34,029 nt of DNA, from positions 1 through 34,029 of the forward strand of contig JAJPJP010000204.1 in assembly GCA_021324175.1 (NCBI GenBank). Reading direction: 5' to 3'. Origin of the DNA: Chitinophagia bacterium. Lineage in GTDB: Bacteria > Bacteroidota > Bacteroidia > Chitinophagales > Chitinophagaceae. Below, in pieces: positions 6,487-31,615 of the stretch. A program made the position numbers and the translations under genes. The notes under the pieces were generated by a model. The model was not told the DNA's origin, made no database searches, and saw only the letters and a list, made by a program, of their open reading frames with translations. Each line of letters starts with the position of its first letter. Positions within the stretch are counted from its first letter, which is position 1.

Positions 6487-7575
6487 TCAAGTCTCTGGCA
6501 AATGCTTATTTCCAGCAGGTGTCAACATTTCATCGTGATTTTCGTTCAAGGTTGACGAGGTTAGCCGTTTTCTTGATTTGTTGAATACGTTTCGTCCTTT
6601 GTTAATGCCTTTTCGGAATATGCCTCTTTCTTTTTCAGGCAATTGTATAAATTTCTGGCACTCGACCGAACAACAACCTTCAAATTTGATTGCGCATTTG
6701 TCACATTGAATAAACAGCAAATGGCACCCTTCATTGCGACAATTGGTATGATTATCGGCGGGCTGACCACATTGGTGACACCGTGAAATTACCTCTCTGG
6801 TTATTTTTTCGCCCAGACGGTCGTCGAACACAAAATTTTTTCCATGGAACTTGTTGGGCAATGACAGTTCTCTAACAGTGTTGCAATAATGAATAATTCC
6901 GCCATCCAAGTGAAAAACGTTTTTAAAACCATGATGTTTTAGATATGCACTAGCTTTTTCGCATCGGATTCCACCTGTACAGTACAAGACGATATTTTTC
7001 TCCTTCTTTTCTTTTAGCATGTCAACCGCCATTGGCAGCTGTTCCCTAAACGTGTCAGATGGGATTTCCGTCGCATTTTCAAAATGCCCTACTTCATACT
7101 CATAATGATTCCGCATATCAACGATGACAGTGCCATCTTCGTCGGACAGTCGGTTGAATGTGGCAGCATCCACGTAAGTCCCGATTTTTTCTAAACTGAA
7201 TGACGGATCGCTTATGCCATCCGCCACTATTTTTTCTCGTATTTTTATTTTGAGGACCCAAAACGACTTGCCGTTATCGTTGATCGCCTGGTTTAACCTA
7301 ATCCCCGACAGCGAATCCACGGACCGTAAATACTTTTCTACGTTATCTAATTCAGGCAAAGGAACACTGATCTGGGCATTGATCCCTTCAGGTGCAATAT
7401 AGATTCTCCCGAACACGCCAAAACTTTGCAACGAGTGGTACAACTCGTCACGAAATTTAGTGGTGTCGCTTACCGGGAAATACTTGTAAAATGATAGTGT
7501 AATGCGAGAATGAATTTCTTCCCGTAGTCTGCGTTTTAACTCTTTCTGTGAAATGCGATTATGTCGTACGGCCAT
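6487..7575 (-). CDS. trhO: tRNA uridine(34) hydroxylase TrhO (rhodanese-domain protein, UPF0176)
   Basis: 362 residues from the ATG at 7575; an in-frame GTG at 7596 would add seven unconserved residues. The family carries out oxygen-dependent 5-hydroxylation of U34 in tRNA. An N-terminal UPF0176 domain (about 25-125, with GRIYIAPEGINAQIS) precedes a rhodanese domain (about 145-235), with the active-site loop CTGGIRCEK and the catalytic cysteine at about 199. A cysteine-rich C-terminal region follows (about 265-310, CHQC then paired cysteines), likely a metal-binding knuckle, and then a basic tail. Length and domain order fit the family. A perfect -7 element lies 47 bases upstream of the ATG, and the gene is probably transcribed on its own. 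Confidence 0.92.
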   Translation of the reverse strand: MAVRHNRISQKELKRRLREEIHSRITLSFYKYFPVSDTTKFRDELYHSLQSFGVFGRIYIAPEGINAQISVPLPELDNVEKYLRSVDSLSGIRLNQAINDNGKSFWVLKIKIREKIVADGISDPSFSLEKIGTYVDAATFNRLSDEDGTVIVDMRNHYEYEVGHFENATEIPSDTFREQLPMAVDMLKEKKEKNIVLYCTGGIRCEKASAYLKHHGFKNVFHLDGGIIHYCNTVRELSLPNKFHGKNFVFDDRLGEKITREVISRCHQCGQPADNHTNCRNEGCHLLFIQCDKCAIKFEGCCSVECQKFIQLPEKERGIFRKGINKGRNVFNKSRKRLTSSTLNENHDEMLTPAGNKHLPET

Positions 7576-7621
7576 AGGTGGAAATTTGCAGTACACTTTT
7601 CTGATGAAAAAATTTCGTGTG

Positions 7622-11721: not shown

Positions 11722-12324
11722 ATGGCAAATAAGTATAAGAACATTCTGGGACTGCACTTACCGACCGATCCCAGATGGACCGATTTGGCAGGCATGTCAA
11801 TTCAGGAAATTTTGTCCGACCACGCTTATTGCGAGCAGAAGGCTGCTGTTAGCTGTATTTCGTTAATCCAGCGTTATCCAGCCTATACTAAGCTTGTTAA
11901 TGACTTGGCCCCCATTGTAACCGAGGAATGGGGACACTTCCGCAAGGTACTTTTCGAAATAGAGAAACGAGATCTGCAATTGGAACGCCAGCGAAAGGAC
12001 GAATATGTAAATAAATTGATGGCCTTTCAAAAAAAAGGCGGAAGCGAAGAAGAGCGCCTACTGGATCAACTACTTACCATGGCTATGATCGAAGCGCGCA
12101 GTTGCGAAAGGTTCAAACGCCTTAGTGAAGGATTGAATGACGACTATTTACGAGAATTTTATAGGTTCTTTATGGAAAGTGAGGCAGGGCATTACCATCT
12201 ATTTATTGATCTCGCCGACACCTATTTCGCACACGCGACGGTTCGCAAACGCTGGGGTGAATGGTTGATTTTCGAATCAGACATAATCAGGAATTTGGTA
12301 ATTCGCGGAGACAGAATTCATTGA
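11722..12324 (+). CDS. miaE: tRNA-(ms2io6A37) hydroxylase MiaE
   Basis: 200 residues. MiaE is a ferritin-like non-haem diiron monooxygenase that hydroxylates the isopentenyl group of ms2i6A at tRNA position 37. The expected carboxylate/histidine set is present in a four-helix arrangement: Glu38 (AYCEQKAA), Glu69-x-x-His72 (EEWGHF), Glu124 (MIEARSCERF) and Glu154-x-x-His157 (SEAGHYHLF). The C-terminal WGEWLIFE segment is also typical. Length is normal. The gene is single and divergent from bioF, with 122 bases before the next gene, so it probably ends its own transcript. Together with trhO it makes two oxygen-dependent tRNA anticodon-loop hydroxylases in this window. Confidence 0.93.
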   Translation: MANKYKNILGLHLPTDPRWTDLAGMSIQEILSDHAYCEQKAAVSCISLIQRYPAYTKLVNDLAPIVTEEWGHFRKVLFEIEKRDLQLERQRKDEYVNKLMAFQKKGGSEEERLLDQLLTMAMIEARSCERFKRLSEGLNDDYLREFYRFFMESEAGHYHLFIDLADTYFAHATVRKRWGEWLIFESDIIRNLVIRGDRIH

Positions 12325-28410: not shown

Positions 28411-28519
28411 ATGTTAATGGGGTCAATTTTAAAATTGGTTAACAAATGACCAGGTCAGCCCCACATTTTTTGCCGCTAGAAATTCCTGAACTAAATTGCG
28501 TTGTTTTTACCTACTAATT

Positions 28520-29563
28520 ATGACCGATCTTTCTAAGTTTGACGCCAACGGCGTAAGCAATCCAAAAAATAACATCTTCGGATTGCCATTTTCCGAAGAT
28601 GAAGCCCGGTTGATTATTCTGCCTGTACCCTGGGAGGTAACAGTAAGTTATGGCGCGGGAACTTCGAGGGCGCCGGAGCACATCTTTATAGCCAGCATGC
28701 AGGTTGACATTTTCGATGCCGATTGCGGCAATGCATGGAGAAAGGGATTTTATATGCGACCACACGATCGAAAACTTCTGATGAAAAGCGATTACCTCCG
28801 GAAAGAGGCTGAGTTATACATCGATTATATTTCCAAAGATGAGCTAGTTGAGAAAAATACCTTCATGACGAAGTCGCTTAAGGAAATAAATGAAGGAGGC
28901 GCCAACCTGAATGTCTGGGTCTACGAGCAGACCAGGGAATTGCTGAAAAGCGGCAAACTGGTTGGATTGTTGGGAGGTGACCATAGTGTACCCTTTGGGT
29001 TTTACAAAGCCATTGCGGAAACCTATGGAGATTTTGGCATTCTGCACATCGATGCTCACTGCGATCTCAGAAAGTCTTATGCGGATTTTACTTATAGTCA
29101 CGCGAGTGTAATGTACAACGCGCTTAATGAAATCCCGGAGGTAAAAAAAATAGTCCAGGTAGGCGTGAGAGACTACTCGCAGGAAGAGTGGGACTTTATT
29201 TGTAAAAGTGATTACAGGCTGGTTACCTACTTTGACAAGGAAGTAAAAGAGCGAATGTATGACGGACAAACATGGAAACAGATTACAGATGAAATGATCG
29301 GGCATCTTCCGGACCGGGTCTATGTCAGTTTTGATATCGATGGCTTGGATCCCAAGCTTTGTCCCCACACCGGCACACCCGTTCAAGGAGGTTATGAAAC
29401 AGAGCAGGTTTTGTATTTAATAAAAAAGATCTCTGAAAGTGGCCGTCAGTTTATCGGATTTGATTTAGTAGAAGTAGGCACAGGAGAATCGGATTGGGAT
29501 GCAAACGTAGGGGCTCACGTACTTTGGAAATTATGTAATATGTTAGTAGCCGCGAATAGTTAG
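28520..29563 (+). CDS. Agmatinase/arginase-family ureohydrolase
   Basis: 347 residues from the ATG at 28520; a TTG at 28496 is also in frame but adds eight hydrophobic residues without family support. The dimanganese site is complete: GGDHS (His155), DAHCD (Asp178, His180, Asp182) and SFDIDGLDP (Asp272, Asp274). It removes urea or formamide from a guanidino or formimino compound. The long N-terminus and middle insert (about 60-140) differ from canonical SpeB, so agmatinase, formimidoylglutamase or another guanidino-hydrolase are all possible. Agmatinase would be favoured by the polyamine-related pseudogene next door. The next gene follows after 17 bases. Confidence 0.87.
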   Translation: MTDLSKFDANGVSNPKNNIFGLPFSEDEARLIILPVPWEVTVSYGAGTSRAPEHIFIASMQVDIFDADCGNAWRKGFYMRPHDRKLLMKSDYLRKEAELYIDYISKDELVEKNTFMTKSLKEINEGGANLNVWVYEQTRELLKSGKLVGLLGGDHSVPFGFYKAIAETYGDFGILHIDAHCDLRKSYADFTYSHASVMYNALNEIPEVKKIVQVGVRDYSQEEWDFICKSDYRLVTYFDKEVKERMYDGQTWKQITDEMIGHLPDRVYVSFDIDGLDPKLCPHTGTPVQGGYETEQVLYLIKKISESGRQFIGFDLVEVGTGESDWDANVGAHVLWKLCNMLVAANS

Positions 29564-29580: not shown

Positions 29581-30132
29581 ATGCGTTATGATTATGTTGT
29601 TACGCTGAAAAGGAACAACGAAAAATTCATCGATTCAATAAGCATACTGCTGTGCCTGGGGTCCGCAATGGCTTTTTTAACTTTACAGGTAAAACGTCAG
29701 CATTTCGATGTGTTTTTTACTTTGGCATCCCTGACTATTTTGACCGGCCTGGTGACGGGTATTATTCGTCAAAGGGAAAAAGGCCGGATAGTTCGGTATA
29801 GGACATGGCTGGTAGTCGCCGGGATTTTCTGGATTGCGATGCCTCATTTTCAGTGGGCATGTTTGTTGTTTTTTGTTCTCGCCTTTCTCGAGTATCAGGC
29901 AAAGTATCCGCTGGAGATCGGCTTTTCGACAAACCAGATAGTAGTCAATTCCATCTTTCGGAGGAAATTTATATGGTCAGAATTCACCAATATTATGCTT
30001 AAGGATGGGCTTTTAACCCTGGATTTTAAAAATAACCGCGTCATTCAAAAGCAAACTGTGGATGATGAAGATGAATTTGACGCCGACGAAGATGAATTTA
30101 ATGCCTATTGTAAAAAGCAACTTAATCATTAA
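29581..30132 (+). CDS. Membrane protein of unknown function with acidic C-terminal tail
   Basis: 183 residues. I do not recognise a named family with certainty. There are about four hydrophobic segments: 20-37, 43-62, 75-88 and 90-105. They are followed by a soluble part with strand-like segments IGFSTNQIVVNSIFRRKFIWSE and LTLDFKNNRVIQKQT, which resembles a small PH-like/YcxB-type fold often fused to such membrane segments (tentative). The end is strongly acidic, with two near-copies of DEDEF (about 162-173). It begins 17 bases after the agmatinase stop and ends 19 bases before the radical SAM gene, so the three are probably one transcript. The acidic tail could bind cations or a partner. Confidence 0.75.
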   Translation: MRYDYVVTLKRNNEKFIDSISILLCLGSAMAFLTLQVKRQHFDVFFTLASLTILTGLVTGIIRQREKGRIVRYRTWLVVAGIFWIAMPHFQWACLLFFVLAFLEYQAKYPLEIGFSTNQIVVNSIFRRKFIWSEFTNIMLKDGLLTLDFKNNRVIQKQTVDDEDEFDADEDEFNAYCKKQLNH

Positions 30133-30151: not shown

Positions 30152-31444
30152 ATGAACGGACGGCCTTTTTTGCTTTACTCGGATGGCAAAGGAAATATTT
30201 ATGAAGATCAATCGCTGTTTGCGACGGGTAGAAGTGGTTGGGACGCTATGTTAATACCGGATATTGACTGGATAAAATTGCCTCAGGGTGGTTCAATTTA
30301 CGAATTGCCCGGAAGACGGGCGATAGGCGTTGACGTCCAATCGGGAGAAATGCGACTTTGCGAAAAGGGAATCGCCGTTGCGGCCTTCATCCCCCCCGCA
30401 CACACAGGACTTTATCTCGCTGCTTACGAATCAGAACAGGGCGCTCCTACCCTTCCGCTTTTTTGCTATACGGCGACGGGTTGGCTTGATCAACAATTCT
30501 TCGTGCCGGCGGTCCGAATTGAAGAAGATATTCGGCAAGAATCGAAAGGCTACATTGAAGGAGACATTAAAAAAGGAGCCGCTCGTCTTTTGAGTACTTA
30601 CCCGCATAATCGTCTTGTCAGGCATTTAGCTTCCAATTGCTGCCTCACTTACCATTGCCCTGCAGCCCGAAATTTGGCTTTGGGTCGCTGGGAGTGCCCA
30701 GTCCCGGTATCGATGGCCTGTAACGCGAATTGTATCGGCTGCATTTCATTTCAGCCTCAGGAGGAACCCATTGTTTCCACACAGGACCGGTTGACTTTTC
30801 GGCCAAACGTTGAGGAAATAGTCGAATTTACAGTGCCACATTTGGAAAACGCATCCTTTCCCATTATTAGCTTTGGACAGGGATGCGAGGGTGAGCCGTT
30901 ACTAATGTGGGAGACAATTCGAGACGCAATTATTGCAATTAGGAAAAGTACATCCAGAGGCAGCATCAATATGAACACGAACGGATCAAAACCAGACGCC
31001 GTAAAAGCACTTTGCGATGCCGGACTTAATTCTATTCGGGTAAGTATGAATTCCGCGCGCAAAAGCATTTACGAGCGTTATTATCGCCCAAATAATTACG
31101 AATTTGAAGACGTGCTAAAAAGCCTCAAAATAGTCCGCGAGCGTGGGGGCTGGACATCGATAAACTATTTTGTCCTACCTGGAATGACTGACAGTTTCGA
31201 TGAATACGATGCGATCCGGAAACTCATTTCTGAAACCGGCCTAAATATGATTCAATGGAGAAACTTTAATATCGATCCCGATTGGTATTTGGGTAGAATT
31301 GGGGTGGCGGAAACCGGTGAATTTTTGGGAATCAAACAATTAATGGAATTACTTAAAGAAGAGTTTCCCTCCTTGAAACACGGGTATTTTAATCCTCCGT
31401 TCGAGCGTATTCGTGGAAATTTTGAGTCCGATTTTGCCCATTAA
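30152..31444 (+). CDS. Radical SAM protein of unassigned function with extra N-terminal cysteines
   Basis: 430 residues. The radical SAM cluster motif is CNANCIGC (Cys190, Cys194, Cys197), CxxxCxxC. FGQGCEGEPLL near 234-244, the MNTNGSK segment and the SIRVSMNS strand belong to the same TIM-barrel core. Before it is an unusual N-terminal domain of about 180 residues, beta-rich, beginning LYSDGKGNIYEDQSLFATGRSG. Four further cysteines (163, 164, 169, 182) lie just before the SAM motif and could hold a second iron-sulfur cluster. There is no SPASM domain at the C-terminus. No peptide precursor gene was seen nearby. Reaction unknown. It follows the membrane gene by 19 bases and ends 172 bases before the TonB-like gene. 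Confidence 0.88.
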   Translation: MNGRPFLLYSDGKGNIYEDQSLFATGRSGWDAMLIPDIDWIKLPQGGSIYELPGRRAIGVDVQSGEMRLCEKGIAVAAFIPPAHTGLYLAAYESEQGAPTLPLFCYTATGWLDQQFFVPAVRIEEDIRQESKGYIEGDIKKGAARLLSTYPHNRLVRHLASNCCLTYHCPAARNLALGRWECPVPVSMACNANCIGCISFQPQEEPIVSTQDRLTFRPNVEEIVEFTVPHLENASFPIISFGQGCEGEPLLMWETIRDAIIAIRKSTSRGSINMNTNGSKPDAVKALCDAGLNSIRVSMNSARKSIYERYYRPNNYEFEDVLKSLKIVRERGGWTSINYFVLPGMTDSFDEYDAIRKLISETGLNMIQWRNFNIDPDWYLGRIGVAETGEFLGIKQLMELLKEEFPSLKHGYFNPPFERIRGNFESDFAH

Positions 31445-31607
31445 AGCGACCAATTTCAAAGAAGACCCCGACAGAATTTGTATCATTTTTAACAATTTGG
31501 GTGGGAAAGCACAGGCAATGCAAACTATGCTGCCTCGTTTCATTATGAATTTGGAGTCTGACTGTATCGTTTGGGTTATTAAATCGAGAATTGGTCGAGT
31601 ATTTCAA

Positions 31608-31615
31608 TAAATTTG
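31608..31615 (+). promoter_or_regulatory. -7 promoter element of the TonB-like gene
   Basis: TAAATTTG is a full TAnnTTTG match. The in-frame ATG at 31617 lies one base behind it, so transcription should start at or after that ATG. This favours the second ATG (31635) as the translation start. Confidence 0.4.

Follow-up and report, generated by a model that had tools for sequence, protein, structure and literature searches.

We report that a gene at positions 30152..31444 (+ strand) of a 34,029-nucleotide stretch of DNA from a Chitinophagia bacterium (the whole stretch is referred to as the window) encodes a 430-residue radical SAM enzyme that belongs to a well-defined, uncharacterised family, and that the distinctive part of this family is its N-terminal domain and not, as stated in the first-pass annotation, four cysteines ahead of the SAM motif. 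The radical SAM core is related to MoaA, NifB and BlsE, with Cys190, Cys194 and Cys197 as cluster ligands and Glu248 in the position of the GGE motif, and it is joined to an N-terminal domain that is specific to the family and whose fold is predicted with confidence. The reading that we favour, tentatively, is that of a free-standing 5'-deoxyadenosyl-radical enzyme in a family of its own, in which the N-terminal domain would, more speculatively, be accompanied by a second [4Fe-4S] cluster on Cys163, Cys169 and Cys245.

The radical SAM identity given to the protein earlier agrees with the presence of a CX3CX2C motif at Cys190, Cys194 and Cys197 (30719..30742, + strand; each cysteine in 171/171 aligned sequences), which would carry the SAM-binding [4Fe-4S] cluster, and with a PF04055 match that starts at residue 186 and lies above the gathering score (57.6 bits, cut-off 29.5). 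The protein was also rightly described as unassigned, PF04055 being the sole family cut-off reached. Among the 17 NCBIfam matches at E ≤1 none was near its own cut-off, and the top match, MoaA (TIGR02666), which is the closest NCBIfam relative of the core, stayed far below its cut-off of 284 bits with a score of 31.5 bits. The genome itself has 19 PF04055 matches, 18 of them above cut-off and the enzyme gene among these 18, and it has a single match to the enzyme protein at E 0.001; the gene is thus present as a single copy and, with no NCBIfam cut-off reached, lies outside the radical SAM families that have been named. A search by words of the open-licence literature, in which a paper could be missed, gave nothing on this radical SAM family among the papers listed.

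Two segments of the core are of note. The first, SFGQGCEGEPLL (residues 240-251; 30869..30904, + strand), corresponds to the GGE SAM-binding motif and contains Cys245 and Glu248, both present in 171/171 sequences, where Glu248 pairs in the alignment with the glutamate of the MoaA GGEP. The second, QWRNFNIDPDWY (residues 368-379; 31253..31288, + strand), is a family signature late in the barrel, with 12/12 positions at least 99% conserved (n=171). In the full-length model, residues 180-412 form a partial TIM barrel that matches radical SAM chains with Z up to 13.3, the motif loop being poorly modelled.

These conservation figures are based on an alignment of 171 distinct sequences, counting that of the window, from 188 fetched loci with a member above 300 bits; the alignment takes in a part of all matches, excludes fragments below 300 bits, and the identity to the window protein goes from 47% (locus L204, the lowest of the 16 shown) up to 79%. 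In an earlier set of 119 mostly close relatives Cys105, 163, 169, 190, 194, 197, 245 and 288 had all been invariant and Cys182 kept in 118; the wider set was needed to tell which cysteines matter. In the wider set the three motif cysteines, Cys163 (30638..30640, + strand), Cys169 (30656..30658, + strand; 21 residues ahead of the first SAM-motif cysteine) and Cys245, three residues before Glu248, are invariant (171/171), as are His158 (30623..30625, + strand; 171/171) and Glu181. Cys288 is less strictly kept (162 Cys, 8 Ala and 1 Ser of 171) and Cys105 is a cysteine in 141/171. The first-pass annotation had singled out the cysteines at 163, 164, 169 and 182, all of which are present in the window sequence, as a candidate set of cluster ligands; conservation holds for Cys163 and Cys169 but not for Cys164 (30641..30643, + strand; 92 Cys, 69 Ala and 10 Val of 171), nor strictly for Cys182 (30695..30697, + strand; 148 Cys and 23 Ala of 171). 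Lack of conservation among homologues, which that annotation had itself named as counting against its proposal, was thus found for half of the set, and the invariant Cys245 was not part of it.

The window protein has no cysteine after residue 288, which excludes a cluster of the SPASM or twitch type, and among the alignment positions beyond it only column 391 has a cysteine in more than 15% of the sequences (44/171). It had been assumed that auxiliary clusters ahead of the SAM motif are unusual. This is a weak premise, since LipA, TYW1 and MiaB/RimO have their second cluster N-terminal to the motif, as proposed here for the enzyme, and N-side auxiliary clusters as such are already known (from the excerpted text of PMC5352715). 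According to the same excerpts the ligand spacings are CX4CX5C in LipA, CX12CX12C in TYW1 and CX35-36CX32-33C, within the UPF0004 domain, in MiaB/RimO. None of the three is kept: for LipA there is Cys164-X4-Cys169, but residue 164 is Ala or Val in 79/171 sequences and residue 175 is Leu; for TYW1 there is Cys169-X12-Cys182 only, with residue 182 being Ala in 23/171 and residue 156 Val; and the MiaB/RimO spacing is absent from the enzyme, in which the UPF0004 domain had no Pfam match at E ≤1. In MoaA the second cluster is C-terminal (PMC5352715, excerpts), whereas the enzyme is devoid of cysteines in that region.

Which known enzyme comes out as the closest relative varies with the method: BlsE for the single sequence, NifB for the profile and MoaA in NCBIfam. 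In the single-sequence search of the PDB, BlsE (cytosylglucuronate decarboxylase) was first with E 8.5e-5 over residues 189-369, a match that leaves the N-terminal domain of the enzyme untouched, and NifB followed at 0.027; in NCBIfam BlsE reached 28.1 bits, short of its cut-off of 400. The profile search of the PDB was led by NifB (6y1x, E 7.1e-4), which is not among the 17 NCBIfam matches at E ≤1 (the TIGR01290 cut-off is 343.65 bits). With hhalign the core gave a probability of 97.5 for MoaA (residues 169-409) and of 77.6 for NifB, scores that are not strictly comparable because the NifB profile consists of 16 sequences from two genera and the MoaA profile of filtered weak hits. NifB tops both structure-comparison lists, with a core fold that is alike (Z 13.3, rmsd 3.7 over 187 residues), and lipoyl synthase ties with it in one; since lipoyl synthase and others lie within 1 Z of NifB, the order of the families in the structure list is not meaningful.

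The comparison with NifB bears on the cluster question. In M. acetivorans NifB, the cysteine ligands are Cys50/54/57 for the SAM cluster and Cys30/63/129 for K1, and the K2 cysteine ligands are near the C-terminus (excerpts of PMC6053413), while the fourth K1 ligand is His43 (excerpts of PMC7145814). The K1 ligand Cys30 is situated 20 residues before Cys50, which is close to the 21 residues that separate Cys169 of the enzyme from its motif, and the loop ahead of the SAM-binding acid is equal in length in NifB and in the enzyme, whereas it is three residues shorter in MoaA. On the other hand, Cys63, Cys129 and the K2 cysteines, as given in the PMC6053413 excerpts, have no counterpart in the enzyme; His43, seven residues before the NifB motif (PMC7145814, excerpts), aligns by spacing with Glu181 and not with His158; and the 135-residue N-terminal domain is without a counterpart in the NifB matches. 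The NifB alignment begins at residue 175, so Cys163 and Cys169 are outside of it.

The protein had also been described as having a distinctive N-terminal domain, and here the fold is predicted with confidence and no counterpart was found in the PDB. When residues 1-180 were folded alone (81 sequences), the best of five models had a pLDDT of 89.9 and a pTM of 0.77, and the other models ranged in pLDDT from 86.8 to 77.0. The predicted structure consists of thirteen strands followed by three helices, and it can be divided into a mostly beta N-terminal domain without detected relative (residues 1-135; 30152..30556, + strand) and a helical linker (residues 136-180; 30557..30691, + strand; predicted helices 136-149, 154-164 and 170-176) that bears His158, Cys163 and Cys169. 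In this predicted fold Cys163 is at the end of helix 154-164 and Cys169 directly precedes helix 170-176. The full-length model, built from 36 sequences, is mediocre (mean pLDDT 66.9, pTM 0.61) and poor just where the cluster question matters, with residues 186-214 and 244-251 below 50.

That the first 180 residues do not resemble known domains is supported by the Pfam and NCBIfam matches at E ≤1, all of which begin at residue 186 or later. Residues 1-180 of the window protein alone matched no Pfam family at E 0.1, and a Pfam scan of 81 members of the N-terminal domain gave three families, with one member each, at E 0.05-0.1. Foldseek comparisons of residues 1-180 at E 0.001 gave no match to the PDB (best E 0.11) or to viral models (best 0.034), and with the profile of the N-terminal domain nothing was found among PDB sequences at E ≤10. 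VIA returned 17 entries for the domain, the best (Z 2.8) on residues 128-180; 16/17 were restricted to residues 124-180 and one (Z 2.2) was on residues 38-128. Absent matches of this kind do not prove that the fold is new. Confidently predicted and with no solved structure found to match it, the N-terminal domain lends itself well to structure determination.

In the reading with two clusters, the N-terminal domain would cover the partial barrel at its open end, where it would bind or shield the substrate. With less certainty, Cys163 and Cys169 of the linker and Cys245 in the loop after strand 2 may bind a further [4Fe-4S] cluster close to SAM. This cluster would broadly resemble NifB K1 or the N-side ones of LipA and TYW1, and its fourth site would be left for the substrate or for His158, the latter as a fourth ligand being a guess. 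The first cluster would cleave SAM, and the radical would abstract a hydrogen from a substrate that the second cluster and the QWRNFNIDPDWY signature keep in place. Taken together, the CX5C pair ahead of the motif and the cysteine at the barrel rim form a plausible, although unproven, site for a second cluster. As to the substrate, the net charge of the family members is on average -14.5 (range -28 to +17; -9 for the window protein), and this acidity renders a nucleic acid slightly less probable and favours a small molecule.

The choice between a second cluster on Cys163, Cys169 and Cys245 and an enzyme with one cluster is, as we see it, about even. An enzyme with a single cluster, in which Cys163 and Cys169 would be structural (a packing or zinc site) and Cys245 close to SAM would be catalytic, for example as a hydrogen-atom donor or thiyl relay, is a real possibility. 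Just two of the invariant extra cysteines adjoin (CX5C), and the place of Cys245, so shortly before the SAM-binding Glu248, fits a catalytic role. Moreover, 105/430 positions are at least 99% conserved, as compared with 3/8 of the non-motif cysteines (n=171); invariant cysteines are thus not clearly commoner than other invariant residues, and with such a high base rate the invariance of a cysteine is by itself no proof of metal binding. The weight of the invariant cysteines lies in their places and not in their number, and it is their placement that argues against the single cluster: the CX5C pair, kept over 171 sequences, stands shortly before the motif, where LipA and TYW1 have ligands (PMC5352715, excerpts). 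A bolder version of the two-cluster reading, in which the N-terminal domain is an unsolved fold and His158, Cys163 and Cys169 of the linker together with Cys245 hold a second [4Fe-4S] cluster at the SAM site, as a novel N-side architecture with a novel reaction, is in our opinion unlikely. The three invariant cysteines provide a sharp test for a further way of holding a second cluster in radical SAM enzymes.

Within its own family, Chitinophagaceae, the gene is widespread, and elsewhere its occurrence is patchy. A scan of genome contigs gave 241 relatives, and the best 80 of these, which were retained, are all from Bacteroidota. Among the nearest relatives 33/58 genomes had a match at E 0.001, including 29/35 of the own family; of the six own-family genomes without the gene in that draw, five have a completeness of 72-87% and the sixth is complete. 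Within the order the gene was present in 86/248 genomes, with 56/60 for the own family, where the 4 own-family genomes lacking it were counted among the nearest 20 of 162 matchless order genomes. The numbers fall to 21/395 genomes for the class (E 1e-10) and 14/395 for the phylum (E 1e-20), and in another class 7/197 genomes, all of one genus, carry the gene, the same seven being found in a smaller draw. A phylum scan at E 0.001 had matches in 52/296 genomes, of which 11 are true members (>700 bits) and the others are at about 32 bits or less; among eight of these weak matches seven are MoaA-like by eye and one (L127) is not. In a midpoint-rooted tree the six other-class members group together in a single clade with support 1.0, next to the remaining members from the order (support 0.7). 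We assume that similar proteins are also present in Geobacter-like bacteria. At E 0.01 neither plasmids nor phages contained a match; viral contigs had no pattern match for the protein and 24 for the alignment, none of them a relative, and in PHROGs there was one generic radical SAM match (E 0.006). The presence of the gene in most of the own-family genomes examined suggests a common product or modification that probably is still unnamed.

Upstream of the enzyme gene in the window are an arginase-family gene (28496..29563, + strand; PF00491, 175.5 bits), the product of which scores 154.2 bits against the agmatinase model TIGR01230 and is below its cut-off of 174.3, and an ORF (29581..30132, + strand) for a small protein that by eye is membrane-like with an acidic tail and has no Pfam or NCBIfam match at E 0.01. 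The gaps are 17 nt from the arginase-family gene to the small membrane-like gene and 19 nt onward to the enzyme gene. A homologue of the small protein is at position -1 on the same strand in 125/170 loci (of 172 submitted, the gene caller dropped 2). In 108/172 loci an arginase-family gene lies upstream on the same strand, no more than 3 kb away; the 172 loci contain repeats of the same genomes, and many are cut short at their ends. Two more arginases were scored as downstream (L177 and L179, among the loci shown) and are placed directly upstream by the gene caller. Of the 172 loci, 88 extend for 2 kb to either side, and 17/88 show none of the neighbours sought.

These figures, together with the short gaps in the window, speak for a joint function of the enzyme and the adjacent arginase-family enzyme in guanidine or polyamine metabolism, as does the presence of the arginase gene alongside in members of the order from beyond the own family (L139, L176, L177, L179, L181 and L182). 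Such a function appears quite improbable to us, for the four own-family genomes tested that are without the enzyme all keep the arginase (53-54% identity; the copy in G540 has an internal stop) and an arginase match at E 1e-20 is missing from 5/12 tested enzyme-carrying genomes. Among 9 order genomes without the enzyme, 5 have an arginase at 46-54% identity (two with an internal stop), 3 a distant one and 1 none. Furthermore, ccmE and ccmF are also kept alongside in 4/6 of the order-mates, and the adjacency therefore looks like inherited gene order. An obligate partnership was rejected, as each gene is found without the other; the arginase-family gene is a frequent neighbour. A conserved operon was likewise rejected: across 46 loci (47 given, with L208 dropped by the gene caller; 8/46 picked from first-round loci), no neighbour cluster of proteins of at least 80 residues occurred in more than 11, the arginase accounting for the 11. 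In the distant families no neighbour (again at least 80 residues) is kept across loci. With the arginase coupling failing and no distant neighbour kept, the gene behaves as free-standing, and neither the proteins of at least 80 residues compared across loci nor the arginase coupling gave a partner gene that hints at the substrate.

Many radical SAM enzymes are maturases of RiPPs, and for this enzyme that role is highly improbable, with no SPASM-type cysteines past residue 288 and no recurrent neighbour over the distant loci, a comparison restricted to ORFs of at least 80 residues. As had been observed earlier, no precursor peptide is evident in the window: the two upstream gaps are short, and the one putative ORF of at least 20 residues on the + strand ahead of the next gene (31413-31610; GTG start, 65 residues) overlaps the end of the enzyme gene.

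Some other genes were observed in or near these loci. In the own family, an EamA transporter (named from one member, L002 7446-8378) and a TauE/SafE transporter (named from one member, L011 8191-8958) are frequent downstream of the enzyme gene, in 52/170 and 31/170 loci, respectively. A DUF4921 protein (named from L195, 5086-6438) is encoded directly upstream of the enzyme in 4/6 of the other-class loci. Elsewhere in the window, the gene at 11722-12324 (+ strand) resembles by eye what we take to be a tRNA-(ms2io6A) hydroxylase (MiaE), and the one at 6487-7596 (- strand) is, also by eye, presumably a rhodanese-type tRNA uridine hydroxylase, TrhO.
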